Origin: Candidatus Omnitrophota bacterium
Lineage (GTDB): Bacteria > Omnitrophota > JACPQZ01
Length of the DNA: 19,598 nucleotides
Direction: 5' to 3'
NCBI GenBank assembly: GCA_016190205.1
Contig: JACPQZ010000039.1
Location: 1-19,598, forward strand
The position numbers were made by a program, and so were the translations under genes. Of the stretch, positions 1 through 16,375 are shown piece by piece. The stretch's first letter is position 1. Every line of letters begins with the position of its first letter. Under the pieces are notes generated by a model that saw only the letters and a program-made list of their open reading frames with translations, was not told the DNA's origin and did no database searches.

Positions 1-126
1 CGGTTTTCGGTGATCGGTTATCGCAAGCATCTTAAGGTTGCGATCCCCGATGACCGATAAACGATCAGCGAACGCGCTCGCCAAACGGCGGTTGCGATCC
101 CCGATGACCGATAAACGATCACCGAA
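1..126. repeat. CG-heptad array I (intergenic, dyad)
   Basis: CG dinucleotides fall at 1, 8, 15, 22, then 41, 48, 55, 62, 69, then 95, 102, 109, 116, 123. Each run is spaced exactly 7 bases. The words begin CGAT or CGGT, for example CGATGAC and CGATAAA. The block 37-72 is repeated at 91-126 with one mismatch (36 bases, 54-base offset). The left run (6-26) is roughly the reverse complement of the starts of the other two, so the array can fold. No ORF is supported here. The array lies downstream of the tRNA on the minus strand and may continue beyond the window edge. Confidence 0.85.
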
Positions 127-128
127 TC

Positions 129-202
129 TGGGCCCTGGTGGACTCGAACCACCGACCCGCGCATTATGAGTGCGCTGCTCTAACCGGCTGAGCTAAGGGC
201 CC
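129..202 (-). tRNA. tRNA with anticodon CAT, probably tRNA-Ile2
   Basis: The minus strand folds into a complete 74-nt cloverleaf. It has a 7-bp acceptor stem (GGGCCCT with AGGGCCC), a D arm with GCTC/GAGC, an anticodon stem GCGCA/TGCGC around the loop CTCATAA, a five-base variable loop, and a T arm GGTGG/CCACC around TTCGAGT. The anticodon is CAT, so the gene is elongator Met, initiator Met or Ile2 (whose C34 is converted to lysidine by TilS). The body resembles bacterial Ile2 tRNAs, with TTAGCTCAG, GGTTAGAGCAG and ACTCATAAT, more than elongator Met, and it is not an initiator because the acceptor starts with a paired G-C. CCA is not encoded: discriminator A at 129 is followed by GA. The gene lies about 140 bases downstream of rpoD. 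Confidence 0.9.
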
Positions 203-236
203 CTTTATCTTCTCCAGGCGAGCAACGGCCGTGGTT

Positions 237-331
237 CGTGAATCGTGAAGCGTGAATCGCAAACCAGTCGTGAGTGGAGTGTGATGGGTGGTGAGACAGT
301 CACATCACTCACCACTCACCCCACTCGACAG
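237..331. repeat. CG-heptad array II with adjoining dyad
   Basis: CG dinucleotides at 237, 244, 251 and 258 are spaced 7 bases apart, with words CGTGAAT and CGTGAAG. This is followed by a hairpin-like pair of arms rich in GTGAGTG (about 266-296) and its complement CACTCAC (about 301-329). The second arm also repeats ACTC with 7- and 9-base steps. It sits directly after the rpoD stop codon on the minus strand, so the hairpin could end or stabilise the rpoD transcript, but there is no T-run. Confidence 0.75.
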
Positions 332-345
332 ACGCGCTCGCCAGA

Positions 346-2079
346 CTAGTCCGCCAAGCCCAGCTCAAGGAAACTCTTGAGGCGGCGTGAACGGGTGGGA
401 TGTCTCAACTTACGCAGCGCCTTGGCCTCTATCTGCCGCACCCGCTCGCGCGTCACATTGAAAATATTACCCACCTCTTCCAGGGTGCGAGGATATCCGT
501 CGCCGATGCCAAAACGCAGACGCAGCACCTTTTCTTCTCTCTCCGACAATGTGCCCAAGACCTCTGTCATCTGTTCCTTGAGCATGGTATGGGCCGTAGC
601 GTTCGCAGGCGAGATTGCGGTTTTGTCCTCTATAAAATCCCCGAAATGCGTATCCCCCTCATCGCCGATCGGGGTCTGCAGGGAAATAGGCTCCTGGGCG
701 ATCTTCAAGATCCCCCGCACCTTTTCAACGGGCATTCTCATCTCGCGCGCAATCTCTTCAGGGGTAGGTTCCTTGCCGTTCTCCTGCACGAGATGCCTGG
801 ACACGCGGAAGAGCTTGTTGATCGTCTCAATCATGTGGACAGGTATGCGGATGGTCCTCGCCTGATCTGCAATGGACCGCGTAATAGCCTGCCGGATCCA
901 CCAGGTGGCATAGGTGCTGAATTTATAGCCGCGTTTGTATTCAAACTTATCGACCGCCTTCATGAGACCGATATTGCCTTCTTGTATGAGATCCAGGAAG
1001 GAGAGGCCCCTGTTTGTGTACTTCTTGGCGATGCTGACCACCAAACGCAGATTGGCGGCGACCAGTTCCTTTTTTACCTTATTGAGATCTTTCTCGCGCC
1101 TCTGGATCGTCTTCAGGCGCTCCCGGATCGCGGCCGGACTTTCCACGAGACTCGCCTTGATCTGGCTGATCTTTTCAATGAGCTCGCCGATCTGCCCGCG
1201 CTGTCTACGGCGCCTGAGCTGCTCGATCTCCCGCTCCATACGCTCAATGACGGAAAGGGCCGAGCGGATATGGGTGACGACGCGCTCGATCGACGCGGTC
1301 GAGGGTTTCGTCCTCAATATGAGGCTGATGATGTCTTCCCTTTTTTGGGTGCGGCGCAGCCGGTTGCGCACCTGGCGCAGATTGCCGATGAGCCTCCCGT
1401 TCTTGACCCCCAGCTCCTCCTCAAAATACTCCTCCGGATTCACCTTCCTGTCCAGGACATCGGCGAGCAAAGTCAAAAACTCGGCCCGGGAGGCGCGGCA
1501 CTCCAAGACGGCAAGCTTGAATCTTTCCTCGGCCGCCTCAATCCGTTGGGCCAGTTTGAGCTCCTCCTCACGGGTCAAAAGGGGTATCTGCCCCATCTGC
1601 CGCAGGTACATGCGAACCGGGTCATCCACCCGGCTCACGCGGGCCAGGGCGTCCAGCCGGCGCTCCTCCTCCTCGGCCTCTTTCAGATCCTTGGCGGAAT
1701 CACCCACCTCCTCCCGCGCCGCCGAGCCCACCACTTCAACATCCTCATGCCCGAGCATAGACAAGATGTCGTCGATCTCATCGGGCGAGACCACAGACTG
1801 GGGCAGCATCTGATTGAACTGGTCGTACGTGAGCGACCCCTTCTGCTTGCCCAGGGAGATGATCTTCTTAATCTGATCTTTCTTGACATGCTCGGTGTCG
1901 TGCAGACTCTCGGGCAAAGGCGTGACGGCCGGTGAGGCCGCCGCCACCCGGCGGGCGGAAAGGGCGCCGCTCGTCGGCCTGCCGCTGCCGGTACGCGCGC
2001 CGAGACGCCTGCGCGCTGTTCTTTGCTTCGCCCTGTGGCGGTGTTTGCCTTTCTGCACCATGCGAGTATTTCTTCCCAT
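346..2079 (-). CDS. rpoD: RNA polymerase primary sigma factor (sigma70/RpoD)
   Basis: Primary sigma factor of 577 residues that directs RNA polymerase to housekeeping promoters. Region 1.1 is recognisable at about residues 66-117 and region 1.2 at about 148-182 ([13 protein letters not shown]). Region 2 at about 341-430 contains [16 protein letters not shown] and the -10 melting segment [13 protein letters not shown]. Region 3 follows, and region 4 near the C-terminus carries the -35 reader [18 protein letters not shown]. The ATG directly follows the dnaG stop codon (TAA then ATG), with AGGTGA about six bases upstream, which implies translational coupling. The first 48 or so residues are an unusual Arg/Lys-rich tail before region 1.1. 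If a later start were used this tail would vanish, but the coupled ATG has the best context. It is the last protein gene of the cvpA-dnaG-rpoD unit, a variant of the classical macromolecular synthesis operon. Confidence 0.97.
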
Positions 2080-3828
2080 TTATATCACCTGAACGTCTTT
2101 TAAACTTGTCAAAAGCTTGTTCACACGGCCCTCATCCCGGTGCCGCTCTGCCAGCCGGATCTCTTCTATAAGATCCCGCCGGCGCTGATGAGCTTCATTC
2201 CTCTGAACGCGGCGGATGCAGTCTTGAATCATCTGCGGACGGTTCGTATAATGCTCTGATTCCGCCGAAAGCGAAGTGAGGAGCGCCGCAAGCGCAGGAC
2301 TCTCAACATCCTCCAAGAGGGCTGCCGGGCGTGCCAGACGCTGCGGATCCTCCTGCTTGAACAGATGCGAGGCCAGGGCGCGGTAATCCGGGTTATGAAA
2401 ATCCTCCGGCCGAAGTTTTTCCCTTACGGTAGCTACAGCCTCCTCATCCCCCAGCATGAGCCCCAGGAGCAGTCTTTCCTCAATAAAGCGCCGCCCCTCT
2501 CCCCGATGAACCGGAGCCTCCCCGGCAGGCGTCCTTCCCTTCCGCCTCGCCTTATTGAGCTCAACCACAATCGCCTCTTCGGGCAGCGAGAGGGCGCTGG
2601 ACAGGCGGCGGATGTAATTTGCGCGTATGACGGCGTTCGAGATGCCTGCCAGGGTGCCGAGGAGCGCGCTCACCACCTTCCACTGCGACCTCGCATCGCG
2701 CGTGCCGTATCGAGCGCTCATCAGTCTTAACCTGAACTCAAAGAGATCCTCCGCCTTTCGAGCGAGCTCGATAAATTTTTCCGGTCCTTCTTCCCGCACC
2801 AGTTCATCCGGGTCTTTCACATGACCGAGGCTCAAAACTTTCAGCCCGAGGTCATCGCCCATCAAGACCTCGGCTCCCCGGAGCGTCGCCTCCTCGCCCG
2901 CCCGGTCGGCATCGAACACCAGCACACAGTCATCGGCAAAGCGCCTGATGAGCCGGGCATGCTCCGGAGTGAGGGCCGTCCCCAATGTCGCGACGCAGTT
3001 CTGGATGCCGTGCTGATAGAGCGTTAAGGCATCCAGATAACCCTCTACACAGATAAGCGTCCGGTCCTTGCGCGCCGCCTCCCGCGCCAGGTGGAGGCCG
3101 TACAAATTTGCCCCCTTGGAATAAAGTTCGGTATCCGGGGAATTGATGTATTTGGGCAGCGACTGGTCTAAAACCCGCGCCCCGAAACCCACCACCCGCC
3201 CCCGCACATCGGCGATCGGAAACATAAGCCGCCCGTGGAAACGGTCGCAGAGCGCCCCATCCGGCTGGCGGACAGCTAAACCCACCCGGATAAAAAGCTC
3301 GGGCGAGAGGCCCTGTTCCTTTACCCAGCGCACCAAATGGGTGCGCGCGGCAGGAGCCCAACCCAACCGAAAGAGATCGCGCGTCTTATCGTCTATTCCC
3401 CGTCCGATGAGGTAGTTCCTCGCGGCTTCTCCCTCGGCGGCATCTTTCAAACGCTCCTGATAGAAGCGCACCGCTCGATCCAGCGCCTCATACAAAGACG
3501 CACGAACTGCGTCGGAACCGGATAGGCGTTCCGGGCCGGGGACTTCAATCCCCGCCTTTTCGGCCAGCATCCTGACCGCCTCCGGGAAGCTTAAGTTCTC
3601 ATACCGGGCCACAAACCCAAACACGTTACCTCCCACCCCGCAGCCGAAGCAGTGCCAAATCTGCTTTTCCTGGCTCACCATGAATGAAGGGGTCTTCTCC
3701 GTATGAAAGGGACAGCGCGCCCTGAAATTGCGGCCTGCGCGCCGAAGCGGAATGCGCTCTCCGATCACCTCCACGATGTCCACGCGGCCTAAGATCTCGT
3801 CGATGGTGCGATCCGGAATGAGTCCCAT
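2080..3828 (-). CDS. dnaG: DNA primase
   Basis: DnaG primase, 582 residues, makes RNA primers for the replication fork and is recruited by the DnaB helicase. The N-terminal zinc-binding domain shows Cys39, His42, Cys60 and Cys63 (RCPFHTEKTPSF, then WHCFGCGVGGN). The catalytic core continues to about residue 340 and includes the TOPRIM motifs: Glu262 in ICVEGYLDAL, and Asp306 and Asp308 in VLVFDADRAG. The remaining 230 or so residues match the helical helicase-interaction domain in length and charge. The ATG follows the cvpA stop directly (TAG then ATG) with GGAG just upstream. The stop abuts the rpoD ATG, so cvpA, dnaG and rpoD are joined without spacers and are very likely co-transcribed and coupled. 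Confidence 0.98.
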   Translation of the reverse strand: MGLIPDRTIDEILGRVDIVEVIGERIPLRRAGRNFRARCPFHTEKTPSFMVSQEKQIWHCFGCGVGGNVFGFVARYENLSFPEAVRMLAEKAGIEVPGPERLSGSDAVRASLYEALDRAVRFYQERLKDAAEGEAARNYLIGRGIDDKTRDLFRLGWAPAARTHLVRWVKEQGLSPELFIRVGLAVRQPDGALCDRFHGRLMFPIADVRGRVVGFGARVLDQSLPKYINSPDTELYSKGANLYGLHLAREAARKDRTLICVEGYLDALTLYQHGIQNCVATLGTALTPEHARLIRRFADDCVLVFDADRAGEEATLRGAEVLMGDDLGLKVLSLGHVKDPDELVREEGPEKFIELARKAEDLFEFRLRLMSARYGTRDARSQWKVVSALLGTLAGISNAVIRANYIRRLSSALSLPEEAIVVELNKARRKGRTPAGEAPVHRGEGRRFIEERLLLGLMLGDEEAVATVREKLRPEDFHNPDYRALASHLFKQEDPQRLARPAALLEDVESPALAALLTSLSAESEHYTNRPQMIQDCIRRVQRNEAHQRRRDLIEEIRLAERHRDEGRVNKLLTSLKDVQVI

Positions 3829-4383
3829 CTAAAGCTCCGTAACCATCTCCCAGGACTTGTGACTGGGCTCCCCGCCGCCCACCACAAAGCCCCTCAAGCC
3901 GGTGTATAAAACCGGGGTAATCTTCATAAAGCGGGGACCCAAAACCGAACGCTTCTTGACGGAGTCATTTAAATACTGCTGGGCGGACATGACCAGGGTG
4001 ACCAGGACCAAACTGACCAAAAAGCTGGCCTGGACCACCCCCAGGACCGTACCCACGACCCGGCCCACCCACCCCTCGGGCCCAAACTTAAGCATGCGCG
4101 TCAAACCGCCGATCAGGATGTTGACCACGAAGCCCAGGACAACACCCAGCAAGATAAAGCACGCCCATTCCAGGAAGGGAGACCTGATGTGGAATCGTTC
4201 TTGTGCCCACAGCGCGAGGGGGTAGGACTTGGAAAACGCGATAAGCGAAACCGTGATGATGCCGACAAAACGCACAATTCCCCACCCCGATCCCCTGGTA
4301 AAACCCAAGTAAATGCCCCGAATGAGGAAGACGAGGATGAGGATGTCAATCCAATTGAGCTGTCTTAAGTAGGGGATTTCCAT
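3829..4383 (-). CDS. cvpA: CvpA family membrane protein
   Basis: Small inner-membrane protein of 184 residues matching the CvpA family, named for a requirement in colicin V production in E. coli. Its general role is still poorly defined. The opening NWIDILILVFLIRGIYLGFTRG is the family signature, and four hydrophobic segments can be seen at about residues 11-28, 35-52, 70-92 and 105-130, the last two with small-residue patterns (GVVLGFVVNILIGG; VGRVVGTVLGVVQASF). The C-terminal 50 residues are soluble. The ATG is preceded by AAGGG with almost no spacer, so the ribosome site is weak or the very short leader is used directly. The gene has its own promoter (4405-4433) and leads the cvpA-dnaG-rpoD unit. 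Confidence 0.85.
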   Translation of the reverse strand: MEIPYLRQLNWIDILILVFLIRGIYLGFTRGSGWGIVRFVGIITVSLIAFSKSYPLALWAQERFHIRSPFLEWACFILLGVVLGFVVNILIGGLTRMLKFGPEGWVGRVVGTVLGVVQASFLVSLVLVTLVMSAQQYLNDSVKKRSVLGPRFMKITPVLYTGLRGFVVGGGEPSHKSWEMVTEL

Positions 4384-4404
4384 CCCTTCGCTGGAATTTT
4401 CAAA

Positions 4405-4433
4405 ATTATAGCACGATTGACCTATTTAGTCAA
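4405..4433 (-). promoter_or_regulatory. sigma70-type promoter for cvpA-dnaG-rpoD
   Basis: On the minus strand a -35 box TTGACT (4428-4433) and a perfect -10 box TATAAT (4405-4410) are separated by 17 bases. The expected start near 4398 leaves a leader of about 15 nt before the cvpA ATG. The -35 box overlaps the mtaB stop codon. The rpoD-containing unit can therefore be transcribed independently of mtaB and the TPR gene. Confidence 0.85.
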
Positions 4434-5739
4434 AGGACAAGAGGTTACCGAAAATATGGCCCTCTGCCGCATGCGTCACGGCAACCTGGGCTAAGCGGTT
4501 TTCTAGCGGGATACCCGAACTTACCCGCACCCGCACATAATTATCGGTAAACCCTTCCTGCCACCCCTCGCCGCCGCACGCGCCTTCCATCAATACCCTT
4601 ACGCTTTGGCCCAGCAGGGAATGGTGAAACGCGCGCTCACCCCGCGCCGCCGCCTCCTTGAGACGCTCGACGAGCCTCTTTTTTTCCGCCGGTTCCACCT
4701 TGTCGGAAAAGGAAGCGGCATCCGTTCCCCTTCTATCGCTATAGGGAAAGATATGCACCCGGCTGGGGGAAAGTTCTTCAACCAGACCAAGGGTTTCAAG
4801 AAATTCGTCCTCCCCCTCCCCGGGAAAGCCTACCATGATGTCGGTGGCTATGCCAATGTCCGGGACCTGGGAACGAAGCGAACGCGTGATGTGTTCCAAA
4901 TCCTGCCTGCGGTAGCTCCGGCGCATGCGCGTCAAAACCCGGTCGGACCCGCTCTGCCACGGCATGTGCACATGGGCGCACAGCCTCGAGCGCCGCGCAA
5001 GTCTCTGGATGAGCCTTTCGGTGATGTCCTTGGGCTCGATGGAGCTTAAACGAATGCGGTCAAGACCGGGCACCTCCTCCAAGGCATCCACCAAATCCGC
5101 CAGATCCCGTGCGGGAACAAGGTCTCTCCCGTAGTAACCCAGCTGGATGCCGACGAGTACGATCTCCCGGTGTCCGCTCCCGACCAGGGCCTCGGCCTCC
5201 GCTGTGAGTTCCTTAAAAGGACGGCTGCGGGCGTTCCCCCGCACGATGCGCACCTTGCAAAAGCTGCAGCGGTAATTACAGCCGTCCATGACCTTGAGAT
5301 ATGCCCGCGTGCGGCCAGAGAACTCCTGTATGGAGTGCGGGCTCATTTTAAGATCATGCGCCATGTCCGTGCAGGCGCTTCCTGTCGTTCCATCTTCCTC
5401 GCGCCAGCGCTCTACCAGAGAAGCCAACTGGCCCTCCTCTTTCACCCCGAGGCAGGCGCTCACCTGGGGCAGGCTCGCTACCGCCGCCCGGTCTGCTTCC
5501 ACATAGCAGCCCGTAACGACGATGCGGGCTTGAGGATTTTCCCTGGCAAGTCTTCGGATGAGATAGCGCGATTTGCTGTCGCTTGTTTCCGTTACGGTGC
5601 AGGTATTGAGTACGATGAGATCAGGGACTTCACCCGGCTGGGCTTCCTTTACTCCAAGAGACCCCAGGGCCTGGCGCATGACCTGGGTATCATATTGATT
5701 GACCTTACAGCCCAAGGTATCGAAACGGCAGGTCTGCAT
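4426..5739 (-). CDS. mtaB: tRNA t6A37 methylthiotransferase MtaB
   Basis: Radical-SAM methylthiotransferase of 437 residues. It adds a methylthio group to t6A at position 37 of tRNAs reading ANN codons, giving ms2t6A. The N-terminal domain carries the three cluster cysteines Cys11 (TLGCKVNQYDT), Cys47 (LNTCTVT) and Cys78 (VTGCYVEAD). The radical-SAM CxxxCxxC is Cys154, Cys158, Cys161 (DGCNYRCSFC). A C-terminal TRAM-like RNA-binding segment begins at about residue 378 (LGQSVRVLMEG). TLGCKVNQ and NTCTVT point to MtaB rather than MiaB or RimO. The ATG overlaps the stop codon of the upstream TPR gene by one base (TGATG) and has a G-rich ribosome site in the end of that gene, so the two are translationally coupled. 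Confidence 0.93.
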   Translation of the reverse strand: MQTCRFDTLGCKVNQYDTQVMRQALGSLGVKEAQPGEVPDLIVLNTCTVTETSDSKSRYLIRRLARENPQARIVVTGCYVEADRAAVASLPQVSACLGVKEEGQLASLVERWREEDGTTGSACTDMAHDLKMSPHSIQEFSGRTRAYLKVMDGCNYRCSFCKVRIVRGNARSRPFKELTAEAEALVGSGHREIVLVGIQLGYYGRDLVPARDLADLVDALEEVPGLDRIRLSSIEPKDITERLIQRLARRSRLCAHVHMPWQSGSDRVLTRMRRSYRRQDLEHITRSLRSQVPDIGIATDIMVGFPGEGEDEFLETLGLVEELSPSRVHIFPYSDRRGTDAASFSDKVEPAEKKRLVERLKEAAARGERAFHHSLLGQSVRVLMEGACGGEGWQEGFTDNYVRVRVSSGIPLENRLAQVAVTHAAEGHIFGNLLSFD

Positions 5740-7454
5740 CAGGATCCCCCGCCCTCCCCGCGCCTGGCCGCGAGGGCCCGCTTCAGATTCTGCTCGCCCA
5801 AAGCAAAGCCAGGATCAATCCGAACCGCCTCCCGATAATGAAATATGGCCTCCTGGTCCGCGCCCAGCTTTAGAAAAATGTTCCCCAAGTTGTTGTGCGC
5901 CTGCGCGAAGCGGGGCTCAACGGCCAAGGCCCTTTCGTAATGGAGCTTCGCTTCAGCAAGCCGGCCGCTGCGGGCGAGGAGATTGCCCCAGTTGTAATGA
6001 GCTCTGTAATCAGAAGGTTCTATCTCCAAAGCCTGTGCATAAAGCGTGACAGCCTCTTCAACACGGCCCTCGCGATCCCGGATGCTCCCCAAATTGACAT
6101 AGGCCTCCACGAAACCGGGTTCCAGTTCGATGGCCCGCGACAAATGCCGTGCGGCCTCCTCCAGCTTCTCCAGCTTAAGAAGTTCCGCCCCGAGATTAGC
6201 GTGCGCGCGCGGATTAAAAGGCTGTTTAGAAAGCGTATCGCGCCAGATGGCTTCATGACTTTGGTAGTCGCGGTTGCGAAGGAAGGTCAGCGTGCCCAAG
6301 GCAAAGGCCAAAGCACTCACCAGACTCACCGCCATGAAACCCCTCACACCCTGCGGTCCAACGCTGCGAATCAACTTCCATCCTCCCCCCACCGCAAGGG
6401 CTACCACCACGGCAAGGGGCAAGTACATGCGGTGCTCAAAGACAGGGTCTGCGAGTGGGATGAAGCTTGAGGTGGGCATCAAGATGAGAAAAAACCAGGC
6501 TCCCAAAAAACCCAGCGCAGGTCGGTAACAAAGGGCCCACACGGTGCCCGCCACCAGGCACGAAACGAAAATAATTGTCGGCAGATAAAACCCAAGCGAC
6601 TTAGCCACCGGCCAATGGTAGCTTAGAATAAGAGGCGACGGCCAAAAGGCCAGCCACAGGTAGTGGAAAATCACATGGGTTTGAACCTTTGCATACGCAA
6701 GGGGCTCCAAGCCCTTCCACCCGGGGCCCGCACTCAAGCCATATTCCTGACCTGATGTAGCAAGGATCCATCCCAAAATAACCCAGGTTAAAGCCAGCCC
6801 TGCGTAAAACCACTTCCTCTCCCGCCAGAGCATTTTCCAGGAACTGGACAAAAAGACGCGGTCGTAAATGAGAGCGATTAATGGGGCGCTTGCCATCACA
6901 GGTTTTGACATCATCCCCAACGCGCAGCTTACTACGGCCGCGGAAAACCAGGCACCGGGCCTTGTGCCCCCAGCTCCCCTCACAAGGGAGTAAAGGGTCA
7001 ATAAATAGAAGAGCCCCATCAGGGCCTCGGAGCGCTGGATGATGTAAGTGACGCTCTCCGTCTGAAGCGGGTGCAGCATCCACAAAAGCGCCACCGCAAA
7101 ACCAAAGCCGGTTGACGGTAATACGGGCAGTGATCCGACACGGAGTGCCTGGAGTGTCCGTCGCACAAGTCCAAACAAGACGAGCGCGCCCAGGATGTGA
7201 ATGACCAGATTGACCAGGTGATAACCGAATGGATTGAGGCCCCCGGACGCATAATTTAAGGCAAAGGAAATATCGACAAGTGGCCGCGTAGATCCTTTAA
7301 CGTGCGCCCAAAATGGGGTGAGTGTACGGATGTTCGGGCTTTCGACGATGTGCTGGATGTCATCCAGCACAAAGGCTCCCGAGAAGCTGTTGAGGTAAGC
7401 AAGAAAACCCAGCAGAATCAATGCTGCCGAAGCGATCACTGATAAACGCTCCAC
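5739..7454 (-). CDS. TMTC-like membrane protein with C-terminal TPR repeats
   Basis: 571-residue polytopic membrane protein. Residues 1 to about 400 hold around ten hydrophobic segments. The first extracytoplasmic loop carries an Asp-Asp pair (Asp31-Asp32 in FVLDDIQHI), where GT-C glycosyltransferases keep their catalytic acid. NPFGYHLVNLVIHIL, HPLQTESVTYIIQRSE and FEHRMYLPL are hallmarks of the TMTC-like family. Residues 420-560 contain four tetratricopeptide repeats (AHANLGAELLKLEKLEEAARHL is typical), ending in a basic tail. Known eukaryotic TMTC proteins are O-mannosyltransferases; the bacterial relatives are mostly uncharacterised, so protein glycosylation is inferred only. The start is GTG, preceded by GGGAG at a suitable distance. 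It overlaps mtaB by one base. Copy A of the tRNA-Arg tail repeat lies just upstream of the start. Confidence 0.85.
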   Translation of the reverse strand: MERLSVIASAALILLGFLAYLNSFSGAFVLDDIQHIVESPNIRTLTPFWAHVKGSTRPLVDISFALNYASGGLNPFGYHLVNLVIHILGALVLFGLVRRTLQALRVGSLPVLPSTGFGFAVALLWMLHPLQTESVTYIIQRSEALMGLFYLLTLYSLVRGAGGTRPGAWFSAAVVSCALGMMSKPVMASAPLIALIYDRVFLSSSWKMLWRERKWFYAGLALTWVILGWILATSGQEYGLSAGPGWKGLEPLAYAKVQTHVIFHYLWLAFWPSPLILSYHWPVAKSLGFYLPTIIFVSCLVAGTVWALCYRPALGFLGAWFFLILMPTSSFIPLADPVFEHRMYLPLAVVVALAVGGGWKLIRSVGPQGVRGFMAVSLVSALAFALGTLTFLRNRDYQSHEAIWRDTLSKQPFNPRAHANLGAELLKLEKLEEAARHLSRAIELEPGFVEAYVNLGSIRDREGRVEEAVTLYAQALEIEPSDYRAHYNWGNLLARSGRLAEAKLHYERALAVEPRFAQAHNNLGNIFLKLGADQEAIFHYREAVRIDPGFALGEQNLKRALAARRGEGGGS

Positions 7455-7474
7455 GATCTCCCGCTCCCCAAACC

Positions 7475-7513
7475 GGTGACTTTTTCGCTAAAAAGTGCCC
7501 CAAGCAGGACTCG
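7475..7513. repeat. tRNA-Arg tail repeat, copy A
   Basis: This 39-base unit matches copy B (7630-7668) with a single mismatch. Its right part, 7496-7513, is identical over 18 bases to the 3' end of the tRNA-Arg gene (discriminator, acceptor strand and T arm; GCCCCAAGCAGGACTCG plus one base). The left part carries a small AT hairpin, ACTTTTT then CGCT then AAAAAGT. The unit is framed by a 9-base inverted repeat, CCCAAACCG (7467-7475) and CGGTTTGGG (7515-7523). Confidence 0.85.
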
Positions 7514-7548
7514 GCGGTTTGGGCTCGCGACTTCGTCGATTACCCCTT

Positions 7549-7626
7549 CGGTTATCGGTGTTCGGTGATCGGTTATCGCAACCGTCTTTAGTTTGCGATC
7601 ACCGATAACCGATACCCGGTCCCCGA
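7549..7626. repeat. CG-heptad array III (perfect 5+5 dyad)
   Basis: CG dinucleotides fall at 7549, 7556, 7563, 7570, 7577 on the left arm and 7596, 7603, 7610, 7617, 7624 on the right arm, all exactly 7 apart. Words on the left are CGGTTAT, CGGTGTT and CGGTGAT; on the right CGATCAC and CGATAAC. The block 7591-7610 is the reverse complement of the left arm except for a 14-base (two-heptad) surplus on the left. Bases 7561-7581 are identical to 6-26 of array I (21 bases). No coding potential is supported. Confidence 0.88.
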
Positions 7627-7629
7627 ACA

Positions 7630-7668
7630 GGTGACTTTTTCGTTAAAAAGTGCCCCAAGCAGGACTCG
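7630..7668. repeat. tRNA-Arg tail repeat, copy B
   Basis: Second copy of the 39-base unit, with CGTT in place of CGCT in the hairpin loop. Positions 7651-7668 repeat the 3' end of tRNA-Arg exactly over 18 bases, in the same orientation as the gene. Unlike copy A it lacks the flanking inverted repeat. It lies 181 bases beyond the tRNA 3' end. Confidence 0.85.
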
Positions 7669-7848
7669 CCGCCCTTCGCTCGCCGATGTGGAACCGAAGG
7701 TCATGAGCCTCGAATGAAATCGGCTCGCTTCGGGTCGGGCACCCGCGCCGGCCAAGGAAGGCGGTGCTCCCATTAGGTCGCGCCGCATTATGTTGGGGGG
7801 CCGGCGCTCCCTTCGAGTCCTGCTTGTTGGCGAGCGCGAAAGCAAATA
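7669..7848. other. spacer between tRNA-Arg and tail repeat B
   Basis: No convincing gene is present; the open frames here are by-products of tRNA-derived and GC-rich sequence. It holds an inverted 15-base copy of the tRNA-Arg T-arm region (7812-7826), a 9-base inverted repeat GCGCCGGCC (7745-7753) with GGCCGGCGC (7799-7807), and two copies of the octamer CGCTCGCC (7677-7684 direct; 7829-7836 inverted). It may be the remnant of something once inserted at the tRNA 3' end, bounded by the duplicated tail, but no integrase or transposase sequence is visible. Confidence 0.5.
7812..7826. repeat. inverted fragment of tRNA-Arg 3' end
   Basis: The 15 bases TTCGAGTCCTGCTTG are the exact reverse complement of 7854-7868 within the tRNA-Arg gene. 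They sit 23 bases downstream of the tRNA's 3' end and could pair with the T arm and acceptor strand of the unprocessed transcript. Confidence 0.85.
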
Positions 7849-7922
7849 TGCCCCAAGCAGGACTCGAACCTGCGGCCTCTTGCTTCGGAGGCAAGCGCTC
7901 TATCCAACTGAGCTATTGGGGC
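7849..7922 (-). tRNA. tRNA-Arg (anticodon CCG)
   Basis: The minus strand gives a 74-nt cloverleaf. It has acceptor GCCCCAA/TTGGGGC, D arm GCTC/GAGC, anticodon stem CTTGC/GCAAG with loop CTCCGAA, variable loop AGGCC, T arm GCAGG/CCTGC around TTCGAGT, and discriminator A. The anticodon CCG reads the arginine codon CGG. CCA is not encoded (TAT follows the discriminator). It lies alone between rsmE and the TMTC-like gene. Its 3' end is copied three more times in the neighbouring 400 bases. Confidence 0.95.
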
Positions 7923-7942: not shown

Positions 7943-8118
7943 CGTGGATCGTACTGCGTACAAACCTCATGGCGTGCACGACCGTACTGCGTACAGCGTT
8001 CTGCGCAATTGTACTTAGTATACGCCTTGCTCTCAACGCTGTACGCACGACGCTGTACGAATCCCGCTCGCCCCGACGTTGCGCTGTACGCACGACGCTG
8101 TACGCTGTACGCTGTACG
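7943..8118. repeat. CG-heptad array IV (CTGTACG family)
   Basis: CG dinucleotides fall at 7943, 7950, 7957; at 7983, 7990, 7997, 8004; at 8023, 8037, 8044, 8051, 8058, 8065; and at 8082, 8089, 8096, 8103, 8110, 8117, in steps of 7 (one step of 14). The main words are CGCTGTA and CGCACGA. CGTACTGCGTAC occurs at 7950-7961 and 7983-7994. A 23-base block at 8037-8059 is repeated exactly at 8082-8104. The left words are the approximate reverse complement of the right words, again giving a dyad. It fills the gap between the rsmE stop and the tRNA-Arg, and open frames through it are artefacts. Confidence 0.88.
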
Positions 8119-8983: not shown

Positions 8984-9007
8984 GATCAAAAACCGTTACC
9001 AGGAACG

Positions 9008-9280: not shown

Positions 9281-9287
9281 AACCTTC

Positions 9288-9296: not shown

Positions 9297-9310
9297 ACCG
9301 TAGACATCTC

Positions 9311-9805: not shown

Positions 9806-9827
9806 AGTTTTGCAAGTGTTGGCGTAG

Positions 9828-9857
9828 ATTATACATAGCGAAAGTATGCAGTGTCAA
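9828..9857 (-). promoter_or_regulatory. consensus sigma70 promoter for orf164-HU
   Basis: Perfect -35 TTGACA (9852-9857) and perfect -10 TATAAT (9828-9833) are separated by 18 bases on the minus strand. The predicted start at about 9821 gives a leader of about 15 nt. It is located in the 82-base gap after the dnaE stop codon. Confidence 0.9.
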
Positions 9858-9887
9858 GAATATTTTTTACCTATCCCCTTTACGTAC

Positions 9888-12800
9888 TTAGGTTTGAATA
9901 GTAACCGAACCGGCACCCAGAAGTTCCTCAAGCTCCTTGAAGAAACCATTCGATATAAGCACGCTGTGATCAGCATCCGGACGAATGGACACAATTTTAC
10001 CTTCAGGAGTAGAAAATTGTAGATTCACAGGAATATTGCCAGGGTGGGCATTTAGAATGGACTTAAGTTTGCCTAACGTGAGTTCCTCCATCCCCGCCGC
10101 TTGCAGATGTATCTTCACGGTGCGGGTCAGGCGCTTTCCGACCTCCTCCAGGGGAAATAGATCCTCGGCCATGATCTTCGGCTGATCCTCTTTCAGGTTG
10201 ATTTTACCGCGCACGAAGATGACTGCATCCTTTATGATATGCGAGGCCCCCCGTTTAAATGCCTCGGGAAACACAACGACCTCTACCGCACCTTCCATGT
10301 CCTCCAGGGTCACGAAGGCCATTTTATCGCCCTTCTTCGTCAGGATCTCGCGGCTGCGCGCGACCATTCCCCCGAGCGCCACGGTCTGCTGATTCTTGAG
10401 GCGGCCCAGACCTGTTGTGGAACAAGTTGAGAAGTGCTTGAGCTCGCCCGAAAAACGGGCCAGGGGGTGGCCCGTGATGTAAAAGCCCAGGAGCTCTTTT
10501 TCGAAGGCGAGCTTTTGATTCTCGGGCCATTCGGGAATATCCGGCACCTCCCCCACACTCGCCTTGAAACCCAGGGGGTCCCCCATGGAGTCAAAGAATG
10601 AGATCTGACCTTTCTGCCGGTCCTTTTGCGCGCCGCCCGCCGCCGAGAGGGCCGTATCCAATAGGGCCATGAGCTGCGAGCGCCGGAGGTTGAAGCCGTC
10701 CATCGCCCCGCACCTGATGAGGCTCTCCATCACCTTGCGATTGGCGAGCCTCAAGTCCACCCGGTCGCAAAAGTCGTACAGAGAGCTAAAGCGGCCCTGA
10801 CGAGTGCGCTGGGAGACGATCGATTCAATGGCACCCAAACCGACATTCTTGACCGCGCTTAAGCCAAAACGGATTTTCCCCTCGACCAGAGTGAATTTGG
10901 CAAAGCTCTCATTGATGTCGGGGGGCAGCACATGGAGCCCCATCCGGCGGCACTCCTCCACATACACCATGATCTTGTCGGTGTTGTCTTTTTCGCTGGT
11001 GAGAAGCGCTGCCATGAACTCCGCCGGGAAATTGGCCTTAAGATATGCCGTCTGATAAGTGATCATGGCATAGGCGGCCGAATGTGATTTATTGAAGCCA
11101 TAACCCGCGAAATACTCGATGAGGTTAAAGACCTTGCTGGCTGTTCTTTCATCCACGCCGTTCCGGATGGCCCCGTCCAGAAAAGCCCTCTTTTGCTTTT
11201 CCATCACCTCCGGCGTTTTCTTGCTCATGGCCCGCCTTAAGTTGTCCGCCTGGCTTAGGGAAAATCCGGCCAGGGTGCTCACGATCTTCATCACCTGCTC
11301 TTGGTACAGGATGACGCCGTAGGTTTCTTTGAGGATAGACTCGAGACTCGGGTGATCGTAGCGGACGTCGCCCTGGACCCGGCGCCTCTGGATAAAGTCG
11401 TCCACCATGCCGCTTCCCAACGGGCCCGGCCGGTAGAGGGCCAGGATGGCCGTGATGTCCTCGAAGCGCGTGGCCCGGAGCCGGCGAAGAATGTCACGCA
11501 TGCCCGACGATTCCAATTGGAACACCCCCAGGGTCTCGCCCGAGCCCAAAAGGCCATAAGTACCTGCATCATCCAGAAGGATCTTGTCCGGCCGGATGTG
11601 AACCCCCCTGATTTCCCGGACGAGCTCAACCGCCTCGTGGATCACCGTGAGCGTCTTTAAACCCAGAAAGTCCATCTTGAGAAGCCCGATCTTTTCCAAG
11701 GAACTCATGTCGTACTGCGTGGTGATTTGATCGTCGTTCGTCTTAAAGAGCGGTGTGTGCCGGATGAGGGGACCGTCCGAGATAACCACCCCGGCGGCGT
11801 GCGTGGAGGCATGCCGCGTGAGCCCCTCCAGCGATTTACTCGTGTTGATGAGCCTGCGGAAGGCATCATCCGTTTCATACAACTCTTTAAGGCGCGGCTC
11901 CTGCCCCAAGGCCTTATCCAGCGTGATATTGAGCTCGGCCGGTATGAGCTTCGCGATGCGGTCCACCTCCGCGTAAGACATTCCCATAACCCGGCCCACG
12001 TCCCGTGTCACGCCGCGCGCGGCCATGGTCCCGAAGGTAATGATCTGGGCGACGCTCTCCTCGCCGTACTTCTGCTTTACGTAAGCGATCACCTCGTCGC
12101 GCCGCTCATAACAAAAATCGATGTCGATGTCGGGCTGGGTCACACGATCAGGATTCAGGAACCGCTCAAAGATGAGGCCGTGCTGAATGGGATCGATGTC
12201 GGTAATCCCGAGGCAGTACGCTACAAGGCTTCCGGCGGCCGACCCGCGGCCCGGGCCCACGGGGATACCCTGCTCCTTGGCGAACCGGATGAAATCCCAG
12301 ACTATGAGAAAGTAGCTCGTGAACCCCATCTTCTGGATGATGGCCAGCTCATGGTCCATGCGCTCCCGAAGCCGCGCGGGCGGGGCGCCCTCCGGGCCTA
12401 CGGCCCGTAGGACCGGAGCGCCCCCGTAGCGCCGCGTAAGTCCCGCCTCGCACAGGTCCCTCAAATATTTTTCATGGCTCGTCACACCGGCAGGAACTGG
12501 GAAAAGGGGGAAATGCGTCCTATGGAATTCGAACTGGAGACGGCATTTATCCGCAACCACACAGGTGTTCCGGATCGCCTCGGGAAGATCCTTAAAGAGG
12601 CTTACCATTTCCTCGCCGCTTTTTAAATAAAACTCATGAGTGGAAAATTTCATGCGCCTTGGGTCGGACAGCGTCGTCTGGGTCTGGAGCGAGAGCAGGC
12701 ATTCATGGGCCGGGGCATCCTTCTGGTGAAGGTAATGCACGTCATTGGTGGCCACGACGCTTAAGTCAAATTCGCGCGCGAGTTCGATGAGGGCCCGGTT

Positions 12801-13367
12801 CTCATCCCGCTCCTCCGGGATGCCATGGTCCTCAAGCTCAATGTACACGTCGTCCTTCCCAAAAAGGTCCACGAAATCCCGGAGCCGCTCGCGGGCCGTC
12901 TTGAGATCCTGCGTGCGCACAAAATAGGGGATCTCCCCGCTCATACAGCCGGTGAGTACCATAAGACCCTTGGCATGCCCTTTCAGAAGTTCCATATCGA
13001 TGCGCGGCCGGTAGTAAAATCCCTCGAGGTACCCCTTGCTGACCAGGACCATAAGATTTTTATAGCCAGCCTCGTCCTTGGCAAGCAAGAGGAAATGGAA
13101 CGCAGTATCGGTGCCTCCTCTTCCCTTTCGATCAAAGCGGCTGCCGCGGGCCATATAGGCCTCACAGCCGATGATGGGCTTGATACCCTCCTTCTGGGCG
13201 GTCTCATAAAAATCAATGGCACCAAAGAGATTCCCGTGATCGGTGATGGCCAGGGCGGGAAACTTAAGCTCCACCGCCCTTTTGATCAGGGGCTCGATCT
13301 GGCAGGCCCCGTCCAACAAACTGTATTGCGTGTGGACGTGCAGGTGGACGAAATCTGTATTAGCCAC
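9888..13367 (-). CDS. dnaE: DNA polymerase III alpha subunit (DnaE1 type)
   Basis: Replicative polymerase subunit of 1159 residues. The N-terminal PHP domain (about 4-250) starts FVHLHVHTQYSLLDGA and keeps metal-site motifs such as ITDHGN and NDVHYL. The polymerase palm shows GPGRGSAAGSLVAYCLGI at about 370-388, the catalytic pair in PDIDIDF at about 405-411, and the third Asp in MDFLGLKT at about 563. Helix-hairpin-helix and OB-fold segments follow (VALGGMVARSREILTKKGDKMAFVTLED is the OB start, about residue 985), then a C-terminal tail-binding domain. Length is close to the 1160 residues of E. coli. Residues 314-331 form an extra Gly/Pro-rich loop encoded by a palindrome. The start is GTG, with AAGGTG upstream. 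No promoter is evident; array V separates it from guaA. Confidence 0.98.
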   Translation of the reverse strand: MANTDFVHLHVHTQYSLLDGACQIEPLIKRAVELKFPALAITDHGNLFGAIDFYETAQKEGIKPIIGCEAYMARGSRFDRKGRGGTDTAFHFLLLAKDEAGYKNLMVLVSKGYLEGFYYRPRIDMELLKGHAKGLMVLTGCMSGEIPYFVRTQDLKTARERLRDFVDLFGKDDVYIELEDHGIPEERDENRALIELAREFDLSVVATNDVHYLHQKDAPAHECLLSLQTQTTLSDPRRMKFSTHEFYLKSGEEMVSLFKDLPEAIRNTCVVADKCRLQFEFHRTHFPLFPVPAGVTSHEKYLRDLCEAGLTRRYGGAPVLRAVGPEGAPPARLRERMDHELAIIQKMGFTSYFLIVWDFIRFAKEQGIPVGPGRGSAAGSLVAYCLGITDIDPIQHGLIFERFLNPDRVTQPDIDIDFCYERRDEVIAYVKQKYGEESVAQIITFGTMAARGVTRDVGRVMGMSYAEVDRIAKLIPAELNITLDKALGQEPRLKELYETDDAFRRLINTSKSLEGLTRHASTHAAGVVISDGPLIRHTPLFKTNDDQITTQYDMSSLEKIGLLKMDFLGLKTLTVIHEAVELVREIRGVHIRPDKILLDDAGTYGLLGSGETLGVFQLESSGMRDILRRLRATRFEDITAILALYRPGPLGSGMVDDFIQRRRVQGDVRYDHPSLESILKETYGVILYQEQVMKIVSTLAGFSLSQADNLRRAMSKKTPEVMEKQKRAFLDGAIRNGVDERTASKVFNLIEYFAGYGFNKSHSAAYAMITYQTAYLKANFPAEFMAALLTSEKDNTDKIMVYVEECRRMGLHVLPPDINESFAKFTLVEGKIRFGLSAVKNVGLGAIESIVSQRTRQGRFSSLYDFCDRVDLRLANRKVMESLIRCGAMDGFNLRRSQLMALLDTALSAAGGAQKDRQKGQISFFDSMGDPLGFKASVGEVPDIPEWPENQKLAFEKELLGFYITGHPLARFSGELKHFSTCSTTGLGRLKNQQTVALGGMVARSREILTKKGDKMAFVTLEDMEGAVEVVVFPEAFKRGASHIIKDAVIFVRGKINLKEDQPKIMAEDLFPLEEVGKRLTRTVKIHLQAAGMEELTLGKLKSILNAHPGNIPVNLQFSTPEGKIVSIRPDADHSVLISNGFFKELEELLGAGSVTIQT
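12381..12426. repeat. in-frame GC-rich palindrome in dnaE
   Basis: The core 12393-12407 is CGGGCC, TAC, GGCCCG, the exact reverse complement of the rsmE core. Outer arms 12381-12395 and 12413-12426 pair with a two-base gap, and inner arms CCTAC/GTAGG offer an alternative fold, so the whole 46 bases form a dyad. The coding strand reads Arg-Ala-Val-Gly-Pro from codon 321, in the same phase as in rsmE. It falls between the RRYG segment and the RLRERMDHELAII segment, where most DnaE proteins have only a short linker. Confidence 0.75.
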
Positions 13368-13381
13368 TTCTCTACACCTTG

Positions 13382-13468
13382 CGTGCTTCGTGCTTCGTGC
13401 CTCGTGCCTCGATAAGGGATGTAATCGCCATGACGTTACGACGCACGATGAACGCTGAACGAAGCACG
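13382..13468. repeat. CG-heptad array V (perfect 5+5 dyad)
   Basis: Left arm CG dinucleotides at 13382, 13389, 13396, 13403, 13410 and right arm at 13439, 13446, 13453, 13460, 13467 are all spaced 7. The left words are CGTGCTT (twice) then CGTGCCT (twice); right-arm bases read as their approximate reverse complement (for example AAGCACG). A 27-base central loop separates the arms. It occupies nearly all of the gap between the guaA stop (13473) and the dnaE start, and may end the guaA transcript as a hairpin. Confidence 0.9.
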
Positions 13469-13472
13469 ATCA

Positions 13473-15014
13473 TTATTCCCACTCAATGGTCGCCGGGGGT
13501 TTGGAACTTACGTCGTACACCACCCGGTTAATGCCACGCACCTCGTTGACGATGCGGCTGGAGATACGCCCCAGAACTTCCGCGGGGATCTGGGCCCAAT
13601 CGGCCGTCATGCCGTCCTTGCTCGTCACCGCCCGCAGGGCAAGCACGTGCTCGTACGTGCGGGCATCGCCCATGACACCGACACTGCGGACGGGAAGGAG
13701 CACGGCGAATGCCTGCCAGGTCGCATCATACAGGCCGGCCTTGCGCAGCTCCTCGATGAAACGCGCGTCGGCCTCCCTTAAGATCTCGAGACGCTCCGGT
13801 GTGACCTCCCCGATGATGCGTACCGCCAGCCCCGGCCCGGGAAAAGGGTGACGGCTTAAAAATTCCCTATCCAGCCCCAACTCTGCGCCCAAGCGCCGCA
13901 CCTCGTCCTTAAAAAGCTCCTTCAGGGGCTCGATGAGCTTGAGCTCCATGTCCTTCGGCAGCCCCCCCACATTGTGATGCGTCTTAATAACCGCGCTCGG
14001 GCCCCCAAACGCGGAACGGGATTCTATGAGATCGGGGTAAAGTGTTCCCTGGGCCAGAAATTCCACGGACCCAAGGCCCTTGGCCTCGCGCTCAAAGAGT
14101 CGGATAAACGTCTCGCCTATTCTTTTGCGCTTGAGTTCCGGATCCTCCACACCCTTCAGGGCCCGCAAAAACTCATCGCCCGCGCGGACACAGCGGACAT
14201 CAAGCCCCATCTTGCGCGCGAACCGGTCCATCACCTCTTCCGCCTCCCCCTTGCGCAGGAGTCCGTTGTCCACAAAAATCGAGTGCAGGTGATTCCCCAC
14301 CGCGCGATGCACGAGAACAGCGGTCACGGCCGAATCCACCCCGCCGCTTAAGGCGCACACGACACTGGCTTCGCCCGCCGTCCGGCGGATCTCATGAACC
14401 GCCTCGCCGGCAAATGATTTCATGTCCCACCGGCGCGAGCAGCCGCAAATCCCGTGCACGAAATTGGACAGCATGAGGTCCCCGCGGGCCGTGTGGGATA
14501 CTTCTGGATGAAATTGCACGCCAAAAAGACGGCGCTTTCGGTCCGCCATGGCTGCTATTGCAGCGCTTTCGGTGTGGGCAATTGCGGCGAAGCCGGCCGG
14601 GGCATCCGTTACGGCATCCCCGTGGCTCATCCAGCAGGTGGTGGGATTTTCGGAGATGGATCGGAAAAGGTCCTGGGTATCATCCAGGATGAGCTGGGCC
14701 TTGCCGTACTCCCGGCGGGTTGAACGTCCGACCTTCCCGCCCAGGGCCTGCGCCATGGCCTGCATCCCGTAGCAGATCCCCAAGACGGGAATCCCCAATT
14801 CAAATATCGCGCGGTCCGGCTGGGGCACCCCGCGGTCATAGACGCTCGCGGGTCCGCCGGACAGGATGAGCCCTTTGGGCTGGACTTTACGGATTTGATC
14901 GGCCGGGGTGTCATGGCCGATGATACGGGCGAAGACCTGGGCGTCTCTCACCTTGCGCGCGATGAGCTGGTTATACTGGGAACCAAAATCAAGGATGAGA
15001 ATCTCTTCGCGCAT
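13473..15014 (-). CDS. guaA: GMP synthase (glutamine-hydrolysing)
   Basis: Converts XMP to GMP with glutamine and ATP. The protein is 513 residues from the chosen ATG. The class I glutamine amidotransferase domain shows ILILDFGSQYNQLIAR at the start, nucleophile Cys81 in GICYGMQ, and His169 and Glu171 in VQFHPEVS. The ATP pyrophosphatase domain has the P-loop-like SGGVDS at 223-228. The C-terminal dimerisation domain ends in VSSKPPATIEWE, as in nearly all GuaA. The start is uncertain. An in-frame ATG at 15065 overlaps the guaB3 stop (TAATG) and would add 17 residues including a GC-rich palindrome, and neither start has a strong ribosome site. The downstream ATG places the conserved domain at residue 5, as in typical family members. 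Co-transcribed with guaB3, the preceding pathway step. Confidence 0.97.
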   Translation of the reverse strand: MREEILILDFGSQYNQLIARKVRDAQVFARIIGHDTPADQIRKVQPKGLILSGGPASVYDRGVPQPDRAIFELGIPVLGICYGMQAMAQALGGKVGRSTRREYGKAQLILDDTQDLFRSISENPTTCWMSHGDAVTDAPAGFAAIAHTESAAIAAMADRKRRLFGVQFHPEVSHTARGDLMLSNFVHGICGCSRRWDMKSFAGEAVHEIRRTAGEASVVCALSGGVDSAVTAVLVHRAVGNHLHSIFVDNGLLRKGEAEEVMDRFARKMGLDVRCVRAGDEFLRALKGVEDPELKRKRIGETFIRLFEREAKGLGSVEFLAQGTLYPDLIESRSAFGGPSAVIKTHHNVGGLPKDMELKLIEPLKELFKDEVRRLGAELGLDREFLSRHPFPGPGLAVRIIGEVTPERLEILREADARFIEELRKAGLYDATWQAFAVLLPVRSVGVMGDARTYEHVLALRAVTSKDGMTADWAQIPAEVLGRISSRIVNEVRGINRVVYDVSSKPPATIEWE

Positions 15015-15064
15015 GACAATTGTGATTTTTTCCGGAGACGGCCGCCCGACGGGCGCCACCGCCA

Positions 15065-16225
15065 TTACCCGGACATCCCGACCCGCTGGGTGGCCTGAAA
15101 AATCTTTCCTTCGGTCTTGATGGCGGGGGCGATGACGAGCTCGGCCAGATGCATGTCCCGGACGGTGCGGGCGCCCAAATTTCCCATGCAGGTCTTTAAG
15201 GCCCCGACCAGATTCTGACTGCCGTCGTCCTGGGTGGCGGGCCCGAACAGGATCTCCTTGAGCGTGCCCGTCGTCCCCACGCGGATACGCGTCCCGCGCG
15301 GGAGGTTCTGGTGGGGCGTCGCCATCCCCCAATGAAATCCGTGCCCCGGGGCCTCCTTGGCGCGTGCGAAGGCGGAGCCCACCATCACGGCGTCCGCCCC
15401 GCAGGCAAAGGCCTTGCAGATATCGCCGCCTGTCGTCATGCCCCCGTCCGCAACGATGGGCACGTAGCGGCCGCTCTTTTTGGAATAAAAGTCGCGCGCG
15501 GCGGCCGCGTCGCAGATGGCCGTCACCTGCGGGACACCGAGCCCTAAAACCCCGCGGGTGGTGCAGGCCGATCCGGGACCTATTCCTACCAGGAGGGCGC
15601 TCACCCCGCTCTCCATGAGCTCCAGGGTGGACTGGTACGTGACCGTGTTGCCCACGATGACGGGAATCTTCATCTTCCGGCAGAACTTTTCGAAAGAAAG
15701 CGATTCGTAATGGGTGGAATAGTGCCGCGCGCTGGACACGGTGGACTGCACCACGAATACATCACACCCTGAATCCTGCGCGATTGAGCCAAAACGCTCG
15801 GCCCTCTGGGGAATAGCGCTCACGAGGACAGGGACCTTGGCCTTCTTGATCTCCTTAATGCGCTTGACGATCAGCTTTTCCTGGATGGGGCGTTCATAGA
15901 TGGTCCGCACCAGGCCCGTGGCCCGCCCGTTTGCGGACGCCGTGATCTTGCGGATGACCGTGTCAGGATTTTCGTAGCGCGTCTGGACCCCCTCCAGGTT
16001 GAGCACCGCCATTCCGCCCAGCTTGCCCATCTCGATGGCAAATCGGGTATCCACCACCCCGTCCATGGCCGAGGCAAAGATCGGCACCGGGAAGGTCCAT
16101 TTTCCGATCTTAAAACCGATGTCCGTGTCTTCCGGGTCAATCGTGACGGCGCCGGGCACCAGGGCGACTTCGTCGAAGCCGTAACTGCGGCGGGCCTTTC
16201 GGTTTCTACCTACCCATTCACCCAC
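15065..16225 (-). CDS. guaB3: GuaB3-type IMP dehydrogenase family protein
   Basis: 386-residue (beta/alpha)8-barrel enzyme of the IMP dehydrogenase/GMP reductase family, expected to oxidise IMP to XMP with NAD. The start GRNRKARRSYGFDEVALVPG and the length match the GuaB3 subfamily described from actinobacteria and cyanobacteria. The CBS pair that interrupts ordinary GuaB (about 490 residues) is absent. The substrate loop has the catalytic Cys221 in GPGSACTTRG, so it should be active, unlike some mycobacterial GuaB3 proteins that lack this Cys. ADGGMTTGGDICKAFACGADAVMVGS is the phosphate-binding part. The start is GTG with only a weak GGGGT upstream. Placement directly before guaA supports a guanine-nucleotide role. 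No other guaB is in the window. The loss of CBS domains removes the usual site of ATP/GTP allosteric control. Confidence 0.9.
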   Translation of the reverse strand: MGEWVGRNRKARRSYGFDEVALVPGAVTIDPEDTDIGFKIGKWTFPVPIFASAMDGVVDTRFAIEMGKLGGMAVLNLEGVQTRYENPDTVIRKITASANGRATGLVRTIYERPIQEKLIVKRIKEIKKAKVPVLVSAIPQRAERFGSIAQDSGCDVFVVQSTVSSARHYSTHYESLSFEKFCRKMKIPVIVGNTVTYQSTLELMESGVSALLVGIGPGSACTTRGVLGLGVPQVTAICDAAAARDFYSKKSGRYVPIVADGGMTTGGDICKAFACGADAVMVGSAFARAKEAPGHGFHWGMATPHQNLPRGTRIRVGTTGTLKEILFGPATQDDGSQNLVGALKTCMGNLGARTVRDMHLAELVIAPAIKTEGKIFQATQRVGMSG

Positions 16226-16258
16226 TTGGATGACCCCGAATAGAAAAATTTAAAAATC

Positions 16259-16375
16259 CGAAACTCGAATATCGAAAATCGAAACAAATTCAAAATTCGA
16301 AATTCAAAAAGTGACGTTTCGAATTTCGGATTTCAGTTATTCGAATTTGTTTCGTGCTTCGAATTTCGGATTTCG
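16259..16375. repeat. CG-heptad array VI (AT-rich), inside the guaB3 leader
   Basis: CG dinucleotides at 16259, 16266, 16273, 16280 on the left and 16353, 16360, 16367, 16374 on the right are spaced 7, with an additional 16320-16327 pair. The left words are CGAAACT, CGAATAT and CGAAAAT; the right words are CGTGCTT, CGAATTT and CGGATTT. A 17-base block at 16318-16334 recurs at 16358-16374. The arms are approximately complementary. The motif TTCGTGCTTCG is shared with array V. Unlike the others it lies between a strong promoter and a start codon, so it should be transcribed as part of the guaB3 leader. Confidence 0.83.

Follow-up and report, generated by a model that had tools for sequence, protein, structure and literature searches.

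We examined the intergenic spacers of a 19,598-nucleotide contig from a Candidatus Omnitrophota bacterium (JACPQZ010000039.1, assembly GCA_016190205.1), referred to here as the window, and found that they carry arrays of short words repeated every 7 bases, usually as two facing arms. The arrays have a period of 7, arms with a counted number of units, an invariant order of arms, repeated copies in different spacers, and families placed within families, and they are nearly absent from coding DNA. The explanation that we favor, with about even confidence, is that they are dispersed non-autonomous foldback (palindromic) elements whose units also turn over locally.

The window is one contig of a 1.65 Mb assembly in 76 contigs. 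Spacing and period counts were made on a 273 kb sample of this genome and similarity searches on 581 kb of stretches, some of them masked. Four short contigs of the assembly (L101, L106, L111, and L139) have a G+C content of 0 and no called gene and are apparently wholly masked, so the genome can be read only incompletely. L-numbers are labels of DNA stretches and G-numbers are labels of genomes throughout.

A 7-base period confined to spacers

A preliminary description of the window had named six spacers with CG followed by five bases at a strict 7-base period, and all six have it. CG-to-CG pairs in the window's spacers number 61 at a distance of 7 (about 13 expected) and 47 at 14, against roughly 7 to 18 at most other distances. 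The coding DNA of the window has a flat spectrum (134 pairs at 7), and its longest CG chain is three CGs. In the 273 kb sample, intergenic pairs number 384, 304, 261, and 201 at 7, 14, 21, and 28, where the background is about 155, and coding DNA again has no peak. The facing arms and the limitation of the 7-base period to spacers are thus borne out, and the pattern belongs to no Rfam family. A scan of periods 3 to 13 in the same sample found 53 intergenic regions at period 7 and 0 or 1 at each other period. Contamination was rejected as the source of the arrays, as the array-bearing contigs have ordinary composition.

CG had been presented as the defining feature. It is typical of this genome's families but not essential, being in phase in 72 of the 123 non-coding period-7 arrays of the genome, and the notion that CpG is the essence of the arrays is ruled out by families without it (ACCAG and CCTTT, described below). 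A role in CpG methylation, also suggested earlier, is weakened because these CG-free families are equally regular and because the reversed GC pattern is richer than CG in some genomes (G062 and G046). The arrays had also been described as lying only between same-strand genes. This holds for 61 of 64 arms here, but it is mostly background, as same-strand spacers make up 78% of spacer length and 188 of the 217 spacers longer than 30 bases.

Arms are counted, ordered, dispersed, and nested

The words were first thought to be specific to each locus and the arrays independent. Instead, the words form dispersed families that recur genome-wide: A (CGTACTG/CGTACAG), B (CGGTNNT), C (CGAAATT-type), D (CGTGCTT-type), and E (CGTATCT/CGTGAAG/CGTGAAT). 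Families without CG also recur, foremost ACCAGNN. BLAST found similar copies elsewhere for five of the six window arrays; for positions 13360-13480, it found none in the 581 kb sampled. See Table 1 for the arms of the window.

CG chains in spacers are most numerous at five CGs, or four units (n = 46, compared with 24 chains of four CGs and 25 of six), whereas GC control chains fall steadily without a peak at five. Four units are also found in 26 of the 51 arms of family A. The cleanest non-CG family repeats an ACCAG box at a 7-base step, leaving two bases free between boxes, and its arms consist of four boxes, AAGATA/ATAGATA, and three boxes (31 rows of four boxes and 30 of three). The four-box pattern has 75 matches in the whole genome versus 3 for the reversed control.

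Arm order never varies in spacers that contain both arms of a family: one particular arm takes the left position in every case (39:0 over eight families, and 23:0 under stricter criteria). Two families with complete arm pairs in one spacer lie one within the other (3:0) and never cross: the CGTG family encloses ACCAG or CGGT. Family C is in turn enclosed by several ACCAG elements. Similarity between dispersed copies stops close to the arms in BLAST alignments, and L140 and L143 match at 93% over 255 bases, with the same box linkers in inverted orientation. Two features of miniature inverted-repeat transposable elements, terminal inverted repeats and multiple dispersed copies, are present. The left and right arms of family A were not seen to form separate lineages.

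Arms point outward from the nearest gene by 55:9, with 28 at 5' and 27 at 3' gene ends. The outward facing of paired arms follows from their fixed order. Arms without a recognized partner also point outward (29:8), though some of these have a diverged partner. The distance from an array to a 3' gene end is mostly short, and that to a 5' end is longer. We rejected a keto or G-skew rule for the placement of arms, as it is crude, weak in this genome, and broken by ACCAG, whose left arm is C-rich. Stop codons in all frames were found on the left-arm strand in 16 of 91 arms, compared with 1.3% in shuffled sequence, and in none on the other strand; they are enriched in some families and absent from the main words.

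Tests of an RNA function

RNA hairpins at gene ends, serving as terminators, processing sites, or stabilizers of mRNA ends, would be consistent with the position of the arrays, which sit within tens of bases of gene ends, and with their folding. Compared with shuffled sequence, folding is better in five of the six window spacers (z of -3.5 to -5.7), and the sixth has a z of -1.2. However, complementarity between arms from the same spacer is no higher than after shuffling of arms within their family (0.875 versus 0.891 in family A, p 0.89; p 0.15 in family B), and no sign of compensatory pairing was seen in families A, B, D, and E, the last two with three pairs each. A T-run follows none of 66 arms, and the Rfam covariance models matched two tRNAs in the window and no other family. 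Because paired arms show no covariation, T-runs are absent, and 5' and 3' gene ends are used equally, a hairpin or terminator function is poorly supported. The earlier proposal of hairpins acting at transcript ends is weakened accordingly, and we consider it improbable. On present evidence, the arrays ride in the spacers as passengers and do not serve as terminators or regulatory hairpins.

Unit turnover in Desulfacinum

Similar arrays are abundant in another phylum. A pattern of four CCTTT boxes, each separated from the next by two free bases, has 169 matches in Desulfacinum infernum DSM 9756 (2 for the reversed control) and 110 in a related metagenome-assembled genome (MAG; 0 for the control). 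A period scan of Desulfacinum gave 54 arrays at period 7, 9 at period 8, and 0 to 3 elsewhere, and the arrays occur in all spacer types, not just between same-strand genes. In CCTTT-seeded arrays, the box positions have an entropy of 0.12 to 0.67 bits and the two linker positions 1.75 and 1.73 bits, a contrast that seeding favors. A word-free search also showed that differences gather in two phases, often adjacent (0.65 versus 0.48 expected in Desulfacinum and 0.60 versus 0.52 in the window's genome). Paired arms again have one order, 6:0 for CCTTT and 13:0 when the arms are distinguished by G-richness. Separately, a dispersed repeat of about 155 bases is found at L231 7393-7571, and several other Desulfacinum loci carry similar copies.

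We aligned four regions between D. infernum and Desulfacinum sp. MAG-79, in which long shared stretches are about 92-98% identical. In the first (L215 5640-6080 versus L229 8500-8990), the flank-side end of the right array is conserved, CACTC and then ACCACTC repeats being identical into the flank; farther inward, a run of CACCCAT stands opposite CACTCGT and then CACCCGT units, with the phase kept. The left array differs likewise, with GTGAGGAGTAAGGAG versus GTGAGGCGTTAGGCG. In the second (L215 7800-8020 versus L229 10720-11010), units are partly shared and partly replaced, and one species has an extra multi-unit block. Upstream of dnaE (L085 7520-7760, L089 9690-10035), the two species have a nearly identical gene-proximal end, CCTTTCACCTTCAAAGGATTGA; the preceding unit differs between them, and units farther out differ in linker and number. 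In the fourth region, after dnaE, AAAGG units adjoin the gene and the alignment is poor farther out. In these alignments, orthologous arrays keep their place, phase, and gene-proximal end while most units differ and some are shared; with two species, the ancestral state and the rate of change are not deducible.

The coordinated difference of most units in orthologous arrays, together with the dominance of period 7 in both genomes, is what would be expected of plain heptanucleotide simple-sequence repeats, produced by polymerase slippage with a preferred 7-base step and tolerated only in spacers. Within seeded CCTTT arrays, neighboring units are no more alike than shuffled ones (0.174 at lag 1 versus 0.187 shuffled), though there is a small excess at lag 2 (0.248 versus 0.193). 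Plain slippage is hard to reconcile with the fixed arm order and counted boxes, and it also gives no account of dispersed copies with shared ends or of nesting. Slippage or templated synthesis, both raised in the preliminary description, may still contribute to unit turnover but leave the paired arms, their order, and their unit number unexplained. As an explanation of the arrays as a whole, we consider slippage unlikely.

Distribution in other genomes

A six-CG pattern matched 52 of 117 Omnitrophota genomes, strongly in G035 (100 forward matches), and the ACCAG four-box pattern matched 22 of 193, with linker bases typical of each genome. Twenty contigs sampled from other Omnitrophota have almost no arrays, so the trait is patchy. 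Sharing of vocabulary within Omnitrophota is modest (7 versus 2.7 expected, p 0.011). A single vocabulary across phyla was rejected, as the window's genome and Desulfacinum share 3 words with about 1 expected (p 0.065), little above chance.

This distribution bears on whether the arrays are binding sites for a chromosomal protein, such as a nucleoid or boundary protein, that recognizes a short box at each 7-base step. Such a protein would fit the constancy of the boxes and the freedom of the linkers, the outward placement at gene boundaries, and the fact that 21 bases are about two helical turns. Against it, one genome has several different boxes, we have no candidate protein, and the tested patterns are absent from many Omnitrophota genomes and nearly so from the 20 contigs. 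We believe that this is quite unlikely.

Other periods were also seen. G002 has period-8 hairpin arms with TAAAYTGY-type words (L121 2303-2412 and 13255-13343; L122 5411-5611), apparently with one arm consistently on the left, as read by eye. G038 has period-10 hairpin arms of the AAGGTTACGG type (L132 1200-1302, 6412-6473, and 12938-12987). Exact searches addressing a phage origin matched 1 and 3 contigs of a viral collection, two of them dense in heptad arrays. The IMG/VR contigs L263 (10 kb, eight period-7 arrays) and L264 (7 kb, nine) may be cellular DNA.

A possible mechanism and its difficulties

In the foldback explanation that we favor, each arm is a counted row of constant four- or five-base boxes at a 7-base step with about two free bases between them, with four units in most CG families and 4+3 boxes in ACCAG. 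Recombination, or a putative box-reading protein, may carry copies of whole elements into new spacers, with insertions into genes removed by selection. Within an arm, units would be gained, lost, and homogenized in 7-base steps, so that the words would change together without loss of place, phase, or arm polarity.

Several observations weigh against this explanation. The ACCAG elements listed have no consistent target-site duplication when their flanks are read by eye. We found no coding copy of an element and no flanking enzyme, and a search for reverse transcriptase gave no match. Several unrelated box words occur in one genome and are hard to assign to one reader protein. No empty site was demonstrated, the genomes compared including no close relative. 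Desulfacinum does not have the four-unit preference in common with this genome, most of its CCTTT arrays exceeding that number. The concentration of variable phases in one array could also stem from duplication of mutated units. Finally, the four Y1 transposase genes of the window's genome (L156-L159) are not systematically beside arrays. As for a related autonomous element, no ACCAG arm pair was seen around a gene-sized insert in this assembly of 76 contigs, some masked.

The Y1 genes deserve mention in their own right, as repetitive extragenic palindromic (REP) elements and bacterial interspersed mosaic elements (BIMEs), which are not made of 7-base units, are linked to genes for REP-associated tyrosine transposases (RAYTs). 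Our arrays resemble REP/BIME elements as short, many-copy intergenic palindromes. Movement by Y1 (RAYT-type) transposases would agree with the presence of Y1 genes in 10 of 10 array-rich versus 3 of 7 array-poor genomes, but Y1 genes are common generally, the sample is small and uncorrected for kinship, and most Y1 loci of array-rich genomes have no array in the examined flanks. The RAYT link is not supported here, and we regard such movement as very unlikely. Separately, a CGTCCNA array adjoins the Y1 transposase-like gene L159.

Comparison with known heptamer repeats

Reports of heptamer repeats in bacterial spacers go back to 2007; the explanation offered was slippage or, in the case of Xanthomonas, G-quadruplexes. 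The preliminary description cited the uniform tandems of cyanobacterial short tandemly repeated repetitive (STRR) sequences as a precedent and missed a nearer one that has most of the architecture in common, the GGGAATC heptamers of Xanthomonas and GGGGA(C/T)T heptamers of Nostoc (Rehm et al. 2015, PMC4692102). The Xanthomonas unit has 7 bases with five conserved positions (1-4 and 6) and mostly four units, explained by G-quadruplexes; it forms convergent pairs in 70 and 75 cases and is mainly intergenic, near genes (PMC4692102). Our arrays share with it the 7-base intergenic period, the four-unit preference, the convergent inverted pairs, and the closeness to gene ends. However, Xanthomonas and Nostoc use one G-tract word per genome, whereas here there are many words, most without G-tracts, along with 4+3 boxes, dispersed copies, and nested families. 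The main words CGTACTG, CGTACAG, CGGTNNT, CGTGCTT, and ACCAGNN contain no GGG, which is found only in minor words such as CGGGAAG and CGTGGGA. Since they lack G-tracts, the quadruplex explanation cannot hold for CGTACTG or ACCAGNN, and a four-unit paired architecture in such words speaks against the quadruplex account of the four-unit preference.

Mrazek 2007, as reported in PMC4679880, found that heptanucleotides are the most frequent class of long repeats in most genomes, with slippage as the proposed cause. The preference for seven bases is the same as here, but in that report the repeats are described as simple slippage tandems, unlike the degenerate boxes in paired, counted, dispersed arms seen here. 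The TAACTGA repeats of Beggiatoaceae (PMC4679880) are likewise intergenic heptamer direct repeats, but of a single exact word, mostly right upstream of start codons, and without paired arms. The Drosophila foldback transposon Galileo (PMC3573991) has internally repetitive inverted repeats, as our elements do, but it is eukaryotic and has an identified transposase, while none was identified for the arrays here. What these arrays add to known heptamer repeats is many words, counted boxes, and dispersed and nested palindromes.

A broader and more tentative reading, which we think is rather doubtful, is that the arrays represent an unnamed class of bacterial foldback elements across several phyla, copied by an enzyme that reads boxes in 7-base steps. 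It would include the Xanthomonas heptamers, and the four-unit rule would come from the enzyme and not from G-quadruplexes. The question of what copies the units, and why seven bases, becomes testable, for example in D. infernum, the isolate genome of which is rich in paired heptad arrays.

Features of the window

The arms and associated repeats of the window are listed in Table 1. The array previously placed at 237-331 has a row of CGs in its first part, and the rest is a separate palindrome without a CG period.

Table 1. Heptad arms and associated repeats in the window, with chains of 4-6 CGs at period 7
Feature	Position	CG chain	Evidence and similar copies
Family B left arm, CGGTNNT words (CGGTTTT CGGTGAT CGGTTAT CG)	1-29, contig start	1-23	Similar copies at window 7556-7628 and L149 16835-16902
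Family B right arm, CGATNNN words	41-70	41-70	Pairs with 1-29; hairpin of 1-80, z -3.5
Family B right arm, second copy	90-126, beside tRNA-Met	95-124	97% identity to 36-72
Family E left arm, four units CGTGGTT CGTGAAT CGTGAAG CGTGAAT + CG	230-259	230-259	Related arm at L147 7715-7750
GTG-type heptad palindrome (GTGAGTG...CACTCAC), dispersed repeat	264-334		No CG period; copies at L103 6598-6668 (89%), L104 1484-1567 (85%), L149 8277-8337 (85%)
Family B left arm, four units + CG	7549-7578	7549-7578	CG chain; similarity to other family B copies
Family B right arm	7596-7625	7596-7625	Hairpin of 7545-7630, z -5.7
Family A left arm CGTACTG CGTACAG CGTTCTG CG	7983-8005	7983-8005	CG chain; family words
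Family A right arm, first copy	8037-8059	8037-8066	CG chain; family words
22-base linker AATCCCGCTCGCCCCGACGTTG	8060-8081		Similar form between family A arms at L110, L115, L152, L153
Family A right arm, second copy	8082-8118	8082-8118	End 3 bases from next gene
Family D left arm CGTGCTT CGTGCTT CGTGCCT CGTGCCT CG	13382-13411	13382-13411	14 bases from dnaE
Family D right arm, diverged (CGACGCA CGATGAA CGCTGAA CGAAGCA CG)	13439-13468, few bases from guaA-like gene	13439-13468	Hairpin z -3.6
Family C left arm CGAAACT CGAATAT CGAAAAT CG	16259-16281	16259-16281	Similar copy at L102 19157-19287, 82% over 132 bases
Family C right arm CGTGCTT CGAATTT CGGATTT CG	16353-16375	16353-16375	Hairpin z -5.5

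A stretch that includes GCCCCAAGCAGGACTCG matches the 3' end of the tRNA-Arg gene at 7849-7922. Two more partial copies of this stretch, at 7460-7516 and 7615-7671, flank the third array of the window on both sides and are 91% identical over 57 bases.

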